Of a DNA stretch of 64,000 bases, positions 43,708 to 53,362 are shown piece by piece; the first letter of the stretch is position 1; every line of letters begins with the position of its first letter. The notes beneath the pieces were generated by a model, which did no database searches, was not told the origin of the DNA, and saw nothing but the letters and a program-made list of their open reading frames with translations. The DNA is from Allotamlana fucoidanivorans. GTDB lineage: Bacteria > Bacteroidota > Bacteroidia > Flavobacteriales > Flavobacteriaceae. The position numbers and the translations under genes are program-made. The DNA is taken from assembly GCF_006265225.1 (NCBI RefSeq), contig NZ_VDCS01000007.1, forward strand, positions 62,001-126,000. The letters run 5' to 3'.

Positions 43708-44490
43708 ATGGATTTAAAAATCAATAATAAAAACGCTCTAGTATGCGGAAGCACAGAAGGCATAGGAAAAGCCGCAGCTATGGCTCTAGCCGCAGAGGGC
43801 GTTAACGTAACCTTAGTGGCTAGAAACAGAGAAAAACTAAAAGCCGTCCTTGCCGAATTACCACAACATAGAAATCATAGCCATATTGTGGCCGATTTTT
43901 CTAACCCAAGAGACCTTCAGGAACAAGTAATAAAATTTATTGAGAATCATCATGGATTTCATATTTTGGTAAATAACACTGGTGGTCCCAGAAGTGGTCA
44001 AATACTTCACGCAAGTCTTGATGAGTTTGACAAAGCGTTTACGCAGCACATAAAATGTAATCATATTTTAGCCCAAGCCACTATTCCGTTTATGAAAGAT
44101 GTTGGATTTGGCAGAATTATTAATGTAATTTCAACATCTGTTAAAGAACCTATACCAGGACTTGGAGTAAGCAATACCATTCGCGGGGCCGTTGCCAGTT
44201 GGAGTAAAACATTAGCTACAGAGATTGGAGCATTTGGTATCACAATAAACAATGTTTTACCAGGCTTTACAGATACAAACCGTTTAGCCGAAATTATTCA
44301 AATAAAGGCAAACGCTGAGGAAACAACGGTTGATGAAATGACCAAAATCATGAAAAACTATGTACCTGCAAAACGCTTTGCACAACCCGAAGAAACCGCT
44401 AGTGTTATTGCTTTTTTAGCTAGTGAACAAGCTGCCTATATAAATGGCGCGAATATTCCTGTTGATGGTGGCCGAACTAAGTCTATGTAA
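43708..44490 (+). CDS. SDR-family protein with altered active site
   Basis: Rossmann protein of 260 aa: ALVCGSTEGIGKAAAMALAAEG (cofactor-binding), LVNNTGGPRSG, INVISTSVKE and the C-terminal YINGANIPVDGG. The catalytic Tyr-xxx-Lys is replaced by S155-N-T-I-R159, while Ser142 is kept. It resembles a divergent SDR subgroup with S-N-x-x-R at this place. It lies last in the upstream kynurenine operon, 37 bp after the dehydrogenase. Its reaction in the pathway is not known; it may not be a classic oxidoreductase. Confidence 0.85.
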   Translation: MDLKINNKNALVCGSTEGIGKAAAMALAAEGVNVTLVARNREKLKAVLAELPQHRNHSHIVADFSNPRDLQEQVIKFIENHHGFHILVNNTGGPRSGQILHASLDEFDKAFTQHIKCNHILAQATIPFMKDVGFGRIINVISTSVKEPIPGLGVSNTIRGAVASWSKTLATEIGAFGITINNVLPGFTDTNRLAEIIQIKANAEETTVDEMTKIMKNYVPAKRFAQPEETASVIAFLASEQAAYINGANIPVDGGRTKSM

Positions 44491-44547
44491 AAATAATCCT
44501 TGAAGCTTTAATAGGATTTGAGGTCTTTGTATATTAGTAGTGAATTC

Positions 44548-44625
44548 GCGTTAAGGATAGAAGCGGCATCCTTTTTTGTTTAAGCAAAAAAGATATAGTG
44601 AATAGCCTGACCCTCGTGGTAACGC
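44548..44625 (+). ncRNA. Structured intergenic RNA, resembles a flavobacterial RNA motif
   Basis: Outer stem GCGTTA (44548-44553) / TAACGC (44620-44625) encloses a hairpin ATCC-TTTTTT-G / C-AAAAAA-GAT (44568-44594) with loop TTTAAG, and the conserved-looking arms AGGATAGAAGCGGC and GAATAGCCTGACCC. The pattern recalls the Flavo-1 RNA candidate family and similar repeated intergenic elements of flavobacteria; I cannot confirm the match. It lies between the SDR gene and the 3-hydroxyanthranilate dioxygenase gene, ending 16 bp before the ATG, so it is also a possible 5' leader element. Confidence 0.55.
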
Positions 44626-44641
44626 CTAAAATAATATTATA

Positions 44642-45175
44642 ATGAGTACGTTAACATCACCCATAAATTTTAAGGCTTGGATTGAAGAAAACAGACATCT
44701 GCTAAAACCACCTGTAGGGAATAAAGTAGTTTGGAAAGACGCCGATTTTATTGTGATGGTTGTTGGTGGCCCGAACAACAGAAAAGACTATCATTACAAT
44801 GAAACACCCGAATTTTTCTATCAAGTTGAGGGAAACATTGTACTGAAAATTATTGATAAAGGAACACCTAAAGATGTACAAATTAAAGAGGGTGATATTT
44901 ACTTACTACCTCCAAAAGTACCGCACTCACCACAACGTGGCCCTAATACCGTTGGGTTAGTTATTGAGTATAAACGCCCAGAAGGCATGAGAGATGCGCT
45001 GTTATGGTTTTGTGAAAACTGTACCACAAAACTCTATGAAGAAGATTTTACTCTGGAAAATATTGAAACCGATATGCCCAAAATATTTGACAAGTATTAC
45101 AGAGATACAACAAAACGAAGCTGTCCAAATTGTGGTACAATTATGCAACCGCCTTCGCAGGTTAAAATAGATTGA
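44642..45175 (+). CDS. nbaC: 3-hydroxyanthranilate 3,4-dioxygenase
   Basis: Cupin iron enzyme opening the ring of 3-hydroxyanthranilate to 2-amino-3-carboxymuconate semialdehyde. The 177 aa protein has the iron ligands in KDYHYNETPEFFYQVEGN (His, Glu) and VPHSPQRGP (His), the substrate-binding Arg in GPNNRKDY, and a C-terminal rubredoxin-like iron site, CENCTTKLY and CPNCGTIM. Bacterial enzymes of this type are as short as this one. It heads the second part of the kynurenine island. Confidence 0.95.
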   Translation: MSTLTSPINFKAWIEENRHLLKPPVGNKVVWKDADFIVMVVGGPNNRKDYHYNETPEFFYQVEGNIVLKIIDKGTPKDVQIKEGDIYLLPPKVPHSPQRGPNTVGLVIEYKRPEGMRDALLWFCENCTTKLYEEDFTLENIETDMPKIFDKYYRDTTKRSCPNCGTIMQPPSQVKID

Positions 45176-53289: not shown

Positions 53290-53362
53290 AGCGGGAGACC
53301 GGGTTCGAACCGGCGACATTCAGCTTGGAAGGCTGACGCTCTACCAACTGAGCTACTCCCGC
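53290..53362 (-). tRNA. tRNA-Gly (anticodon TCC)
   Basis: The 73-nt minus-strand sequence folds as a full cloverleaf: acceptor GCGGGAG / CTCCCGC, D-stem GCTC / GAGC, anticodon stem TCAGC / GCTGA around loop CTTCCAA (anticodon TCC, codon GGA), variable ATGTC and T-arm GCCGG-TTCGAAC-CCGGT. The CCA end is not encoded: the next bases give CAA. It is a lone tRNA. Confidence 0.97.

Follow-up and report, generated by a model that had tools for sequence, protein, structure and literature searches.

Introduction

Between a short-chain dehydrogenase (SDR) gene and nbaC of Allotamlana fucoidanivorans lies a folded segment, and the question that it raises is what it is and whether it serves the pathway in which it sits. 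We analysed a 64,000-nt stretch of contig NZ_VDCS01000007.1, here called the window, whose own numbering is used throughout. The original prediction, made from the letters of the window, took the segment for a structured RNA, perhaps Flavo-1, that is either a stand-alone ncRNA or a 5' leader separating and controlling the two halves of the kynurenine pathway. As far as the accessible parts of the two sources go, Flavo-1 has been catalogued since 2010 (PMC2864571), and a 2022 table assigns it no function (PMC9029176).

Identity of the folded segment

A scan of the 64-kb window with the covariance models of Rfam release 15 matched Flavo-1 over the full model (1-76), with E 8.6e-9 and a score above the gathering score of 42 (Table 1). 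The guess of Flavo-1 was therefore correct, and the folded segment is confirmed as real and as a Flavo-1 element. A sequence check found the outer stem as it had been drawn (GCGTTA, 44548-44553, against TAACGC, 44620-44625), together with the inner hairpin of six T-A pairs (TTTTTT, 44572-44577, opposite AAAAAA, 44586-44591). The position was also as described, with the SDR stop codon ending at 44490 and the nbaC ATG at 44642, 16 nt past 44625. The label 'kynurenine island' fits the flanking gene content as judged by domain matches: SDR and nbaC sit in a run with kynureninase, an FAD monooxygenase, a RidA-like protein, an aldehyde dehydrogenase and an amidohydrolase. The prediction had made its case depend on a covariance match and on further copies in the host and its relatives, and both were found. 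Rfam recognises 16 Flavo-1 copies in the host genome, of which 12 exceed the cut-off, and it recognises Flavo-1 in 31 of 60 relatives at E <= 0.001 (27 over the cut-off).

The folding energy of the window copy as a single sequence is no better than chance (z -0.49 on the + strand, -1.33 on the - strand). A single sequence therefore proves nothing, and the proof is comparative.

The sole other gathering-level Rfam match in the window is a tRNA gene (53290-53362, - strand, 73.7 bits). Matches to Plastid-psbA-1, TtnuCD26, CRISPR-DR4 and DdR1 lay far under their gathering scores and were taken as chance.

Table 1. Features of the element and its neighbours in window coordinates (R1, frame model; A2, alignment of 35 copies)
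Feature	Position	Strand	Evidence or remark
Upstream gene, short-chain dehydrogenase (SDR)	43708..44490	+	PF13561/PF00106
Rfam-matched part, RF01705 Flavo-1	44543..44616	+	53.5 bits
Base preceding P1	44547	+	C here; T in 78% of 69 genome copies
Complete element, three-way-junction frame with Flavo-1 arm	44548..44625	+	R1, 86.2 bits
P1 5' strand GCGTT	44548..44552	+	pairs with 44621-44625, co-varies
P2 arm, Flavo-1 module	44554..44608	+	Rfam alignment; both-side changes in A2
P3 small hairpin ACC-CTCGT-GGT	44610..44620	+	differing stems elsewhere still pair
P1 3' strand AACGC	44621..44625	+	pairing and co-variation
3' flank CTAAA	44626..44630	+	consensus CCAAA, n=69
Downstream gene nbaC, 3-hydroxyanthranilate 3,4-dioxygenase	44642..45175	+	PF06052

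A three-way junction around the Flavo-1 arm

The RF01705 consensus leaves eight outer positions on each side unpaired and the model spans one arm only. What is new here is that the aligned copies show Flavo-1 as a three-armed structure larger than the catalogue model. Among 113 high-scoring Rfam copies (80 places out of about 150), two flank forms occur, 38 of type A, with uAGC beside the arm, and 75 of type B, including the window copy; the split follows a script rule, which called L066 type A although it is frame-like and matches R1, and classed L003 as type B although it is without P1. Type B, with exceptions, has an outer stem P1 and a small hairpin P3 ahead of the P1 3' strand, which together with the arm P2 make a three-way junction.

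In the window copy P2 runs in the order AGGATAG-AAGCGG, the hairpin with six T-A pairs and GTGAATAGCCT, with purine-rich mismatches separating short helices. Its sequence and pairing are the same as those of the Flavo-1 RNA motif, RF01705 (Weinberg et al. 2010, PMC2864571), and in A2 both sides change at P2 pairs 7-92, 8-91, 12-87, 16-83 and 17-82. The RF01705 model differs in its unpaired flanks, whose consensus is like type A (uAGCC..GGAAAwAGC), whereas the window copy has P1 and P3. The size of P3 ranges from 2-3 pairs up to stems of 11-15 pairs with unrelated sequences, for example ACTTTTGC/GCAAAAGT in locus L008 and an 11-bp stem in L080. T44620 has two possible partners, A44553, as the sixth P1 pair first drawn, and A44610 in P3. 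In the 3' flank the consensus bases reach C 86%, C 73%, A 66%, A 85% and A 86% (n=69).

The apical loop of P2 is frequently GAGGNACGA across genomes and loci (L001, L002, L012, L013, L022, L088, L098, L100, L264, L267 and others), though loops are otherwise free.

Co-variation strongly supports the P1 and P3 helices. P1 varies in step on its two strands (GTGTT/AACAC, GGGTT/AACCC, GGCTT/AAGCY, GCGTG/CACGC, GCATT/AATGC, GCGAG/CTCGC and others). In A2, 96.4% of cells pair, both sides change at 12 of 15 pairs and 66 cells are double changes against 13.9 in shuffled alignments; the P1 counts are partly selected, because the 35 copies were chosen by a script requiring P1 pairing. RNAalifold, run on the same P1-selected rows without a given structure, recovers P1, P2 and P3, with changes on both sides at 19 of 22 pairs. 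The 88 R1 matches again change both sides at 12 of 15 pairs; their double changes fill 156 cells, where shuffling gives 38.4 and sliding 8-18. This count comes from one of the A3/A4 alignments, which were fitted to the model; 27 matches at nbaC-linked loci give 38 double-change cells against 7.3.

The control for P1 used type-B copies picked by Rfam, P1 playing no role in their choice. The exact 5-nt complement of P1 lies downstream in 53 of these 75 matches, against a shuffled mean of 24.0 and a maximum of 33 in 1000 shuffles. Where the 5-mer is other than GCGTT (n=36) the complement is present in 17, against 3.7 shuffled with a maximum of 13. The same complement search found no 5-nt P1 in type A copies (2/38 against 1.7). 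G.U outnumbers A.C at paired positions by 26:9, an excess expected if the modelled strand is the folding strand, with the caveat that Rfam selection favours P2 pairs. In the accessible running text on Flavo-1 and RF01705, that is, figures and supplements apart, including the 2010 consensus drawings in an additional file, P1, P3 and other arms go undescribed.

Exchangeable arms in one frame

The same P1/P3 frame encloses other P2 arms at homologous gaps of other genomes, namely arm C (..AGC-aA-GCUAC..GUAGC-GCG..) and arm D (NNNN-UUGUUGGAGCUC..GAGCGAC-N'N'N'N'). These two further arm types escape Rfam at gathering level, and gathering-level matches were absent from 20 loci, of which 16 have a C or D arm. 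The labels F, C and D, the arm types at proC and the degenerate remnants L135, L149 and L150 rest on inspection by eye; L172 is interrupted and was counted among the Flavo-1 arms, and L293 has a Flavo-1 arm by eye against a script class 'D', which went unused. The frame model R1 finds 28 copies in the host genome against the 16 of Rfam, and the extra 12 look like type D by eye. The window copy has the highest score among the 28 (86.2 bits) and was itself one of the 35 copies from which R1 was built. Since R1 scores type-C copies with a large P3 poorly (18-31 bits), its counts are lower bounds.

Turnover at the SDR-nbaC gap and behind proC

For the nbaC-linked loci we took the best 80 of 584 confirmed stretches from GTDB genomes. 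The frame is present in the SDR-nbaC gap of 26 of these best 80 of 584, always on the sense strand and 15-19 nt ahead of the annotated nbaC match start; by eye, 11 of the 26 have Flavo-1 arms, 5 have C and 10 have D. Three further gap elements look degenerate (L135, L149 and L150). No element was recognised in 41 of the best 80 of 584, and 21 of these gaps are no longer than 63 nt. The one-contig genome G094 has a copy (L285) whose neighbouring genes encode 260 and 177 aa; the site is probably the SDR-nbaC one.

Presence at this site is patchy, and the arm turns over while site and orientation stay fixed. The tree of NbaC and SDR was made with FastTree and leaves 30 of its 77 inner branches open, with 8 rows less than half filled. 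On it presence changed at least 15 times, counting 29 carriers with the 3 degenerate elements, and no fewer than 11 changes of arm type are needed for 27 carriers; Aestuariibaculum sediminum, for example, has D and A. marinum has C. P1 mostly follows the arm, C going with GCGTG in 5/5 and D with GCGTT in 9/10 (GCGTG in L138), which suggests replacement of the entire element rather than of the arm alone. Orthologous copies are retained from genus to genus; of their 34 changed pairs, 21 still pair and 13 do not. This hints at constraint in place, though weakly, since conservation of the upstream flanks is nearly as high.

Other sequences in the gap were noted by eye. Ten frame-less gaps (L126, L133, L134, L140, L146, L186, L194, L196, L198 and L204) hold another structured-looking repeat, about CTCAAATNCCCGATTTGAGTTTCTCCC...AGGGGCTTT. 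An TTGTCATTCCTGCGAA-like palindromic repeat occupies the gap of L192, L193 and L201, with related-looking sequences in L145 and L168, and the spacer thus collects several repeat families. In L155 (2376-2485) and L172 (about 2340-2485) the base of P2 is interrupted at one and the same point, after GATT, by insertions that resemble each other and are apparently copies of a further dispersed repeat.

A conserved AT-rich block (TAATTTTAWTGMATTGA-like) stops a few bases before P1 in ten carrier loci by eye (L152, L158, L161, L162, L164, L165, L170, L176, L183 and L195) and could serve nbaC as an internal promoter or operator.

The proC query, run in one other genus, matched 94 of 101 genomes. Among the matches listed, 8 of 30 loci carry the frame behind proC, all antisense to proC; five of the 8 copies score low (18-31 bits), and by eye all three arm types occur. 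At many of the 22 element-free proC loci a plain hairpin of terminator-like appearance is present (by eye).

In the type-C proC copies L317, L319, L325, L335 and L343, P3 contains a long hairpin between A and T tracts, which by eye looks like a two-way intrinsic terminator.

A possible promoter for nbaC

An nbaC 5' leader with its own upstream promoter, which would regulate the second half of the pathway and perhaps do so in some species, is improbable. The element is sense and 15-19 nt ahead of nbaC at every one of the 26 loci, conserved AT-rich blocks adjoin the element on its upstream side in about ten carrier loci, and a TTTGTATATTAGTA block is common to the window, L131, L159, L166 and L174 by eye; these fit a leader, as does a weak E. 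coli-type promoter-like match (9 of 12) at 44508-44535, just ahead of the element. However, the E. coli-type scan gave 6 matches against 5.4 expected, the level of shuffled sequence, with a consensus that is not informative for Bacteroidota. The promoter box consensus used for the search was TAnnTTTG, and the exact box is absent from 44491-44560. In L132, L139 and L148 the gap is short (95-106 nt) and mostly element, with little room for a promoter. Most gaps are without the element, and the same element stands beside unrelated genes.

Copies across genomes and their position

R1 matches occur in at least 140 of 199 Flavobacteriaceae genomes sampled and in at least 29 of 198 genomes sampled across the phylum Bacteroidota; at most 21 candidates were scored per genome in these two samples, so that copy numbers from them are lower bounds. 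In 12 genomes searched more fully with R1 there are 0 to 75 copies each, and three one-contig genomes have 59, 61 and 31. The neighbours are varied. Eight of the 28 host copies were examined for their neighbours, named by us from sequence, and these are unrelated (trmD/rplS, pheS, lipB/lysS, accC, a deaminase and methyltransferases), as are those of 20 copies in two other genomes. Many intergenic copies beside unrelated genes are what a REP-like dispersed repeat would show.

These data bear directly on a role in the pathway. A riboswitch or dedicated nbaC leader would be conserved before nbaC and stand beside genes of related function, and what we found was the frame in 26 of the best 80 of 584 gaps, three interchanging arms, and unrelated genes at the other copies. 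A kynurenine-specific leader is therefore unlikely and was rejected as the main reading. The original prediction stood in its Flavo-1 identity and its further copies; the claim that the segment separates and controls the halves of the pathway is unsupported as a dedicated role.

From 117 contexts, 21 repeated ones and further overlapping ones were taken out, and 94 copies could be classified: 43 antisense and 31 sense, both between co-directional genes, 14 convergent and 6 divergent, with gene starts from simple ORF picking rather than curation. In gaps shorter than 500 nt the 35 antisense copies lie a median of 10 nt past the stop codon and the 27 sense copies a median of 34 nt, and antisense copies are nearer to the stop codon in 27 of 35 (p 0.002). 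Type A copies are antisense in 28/38 and sense in 6/38, a count that includes orthologues, and the 12 extra D-like host copies comprise 9 antisense, 1 sense and 2 divergent.

The main rival to our preferred reading is a generic role at transcript ends. The element would then be a working cis element at transcript ends or operon junctions, acting as RNA or through a bound protein on mRNA 3'-end stability, processing or termination of the upstream gene, and would do so at many loci. We regard this as possible but doubtful. It agrees with the short distance of antisense copies behind stop codons, with the pairing kept in orthologues, and with an orientation that is constant at nbaC (26/26) and proC (8/8) despite arm turnover; the terminator-like hairpins at proC, plain or within P3 of five type-C copies, point the same way. 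On the other hand, sense and antisense numbers are not significantly different in co-directional gaps shorter than 500 nt (27 against 35, p 0.37), and 54 of the best 80 of 584 homologous gaps gave no frame match. The window copy is without a U-tract, and the terminator scan was negative for both strands at 44548-44625.

Mobility and transcription

Copy bursts are clear and are confined to some genomes. Within a genome, P2-loop 5-mers are shared at 0.65 in G003 and at 0.38 in G033, the level between genomes being 0.24; the other four of the six genomes compared, namely the host (G000, 0.17), G014, G017 and G029 (0.17-0.24 in these four), do not exceed it. The host copies thus look old, their P2 loops resembling one another no more than they resemble those of other genomes. 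P3-loop sharing is 0.27 within genomes against 0.07 between them, most of the within-genome pairs coming from G033, and the loops of G365 appear near-identical by eye.

Such bursts in G003 and G033, the imperfect palindrome and the hot-spot gap would suit a transposon end or non-autonomous insertion element recognised as folded single-stranded DNA, in the manner of IS200 or REP-RAYT. The slight leading-strand excess would suit it as well (95 against 65 among the matches listed in four genomes, p 0.02; 10 of 14 matches are listed for G014 and 60 of 61 for G191, with the origin set at dnaA and the terminus assumed at the midpoint). Against this, the bias is not significant in any single genome, and a strong replication-strand bias was not found in the four. 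The Y1 transposase domain PF01797 has no match in G000, G003 and G017 despite their 28, 25 and 43 copies, and a RAYT/Y1 association was rejected for the host genome, where it has 0 matches. The window copy was unmatched in phages and plasmids at BLAST sensitivity. We consider a transposon end very unlikely. Short element-free gaps do exist, with no target-site duplication recognised by eye.

The least probable explanation that we weighed is the other half of the original prediction, a stand-alone small RNA. It has in its favour the type of the Rfam entry ('Gene; sRNA') and the G.U to A.C count, which favours one strand. The host, however, has 28 dispersed copies, no promoter signature rises above chance, 44491-44560 contains no exact TAnnTTTG box, and copies occur in both orientations. 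In the F. psychrophilum transcriptome, Flavo-1 matches lie sense and antisense to transcribed regions and many lie outside them, and the accessible part of that study gives no real functional clue and no consistent sense transcript for Flavo-1 (PMC9723704).

Discussion

Our analysis gives about an even chance to the reading that the window segment is a single copy of an intergenic repeat that is dispersed among Bacteroidota, conserved in structure and most frequent in Flavobacteriaceae, and that this copy stands as a folded spacer in the kynurenine operon. The folded strand is a three-way junction in which P1 closes the element, P2 is an exchangeable long arm, here Flavo-1, and P3 is a small or expanded hairpin. 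Copies would arise through a copying process, and recombination between copies (gene conversion) would overwrite elements, so that the orientation is kept while the arm changes. Constant orientation with changing arms fits such overwriting and fits selection for orientation equally. If SDR and nbaC are co-transcribed, as we assume, the element would be transcribed between them and fold as an RNA spacer. As to its function, we infer that a local effect, if there is any, would be generic and of the REP/BIME kind, acting on the stability of mRNA or on its processing between cistrons, and that the element would not sense a compound of the kynurenine pathway. The clustering of antisense copies behind stop codons need not be expected from neutral tolerance, and this counts against our preferred reading, as do the lack of a Y1 transposase in the host genome, the P2 loops of the four genomes without bursts and, weakly, the pairing kept in orthologues. 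A further view, possible if tentative, is that Flavo-1 is no RNA of its own but an exchangeable arm within a Bacteroidota superfamily of three-way-junction elements, in which the P1/P3 frame takes at least three P2 modules and elements are overwritten at fixed sites with their orientation kept. This may be an active, structure-selected repeat system at transcript ends and operon junctions with a putative cognate protein or copying enzyme.

REP/BIME elements of enterobacteria are dispersed, palindromic and intergenic, lie near 3' ends and in operon gaps in both orientations, and have many copies. The element of this study shares the dispersal, the palindromy, the 3'-end and operon-gap sites, both orientations and the high copy number, but it is longer and three-armed, its helices co-vary, and the host genome holds no RAYT/Y1 partner. 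MITE-like elements are short and non-coding, with genome-specific bursts and patchy presence. The element is likewise short, non-coding, patchy and prone to bursts in some genomes, but it conserves structure rather than ends. Metabolite-sensing or attenuator leaders, such as Bacteroid-trp in the accessible part of the 2010 screen, are also structured RNAs beside a metabolic gene; unlike them, the element accompanies no single gene function in the copies examined and occurs in both orientations across genomes. Literature searches for RAYT, MITE, REP and intergenic repeats of flavobacteria gave no mention of the element among the matches listed; the accessible part of one study includes two Flavobacterium genomes among its REP counts (PMC12306157).

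If RF01705 covers one arm of a larger element and passes over its sister arm types, analyses of the location and expression of Flavo-1 mix or miss copies. No single copy should be read as a regulator of the pathway nearest to it. A corrected full-frame model would make the question of Flavo-1 function testable.
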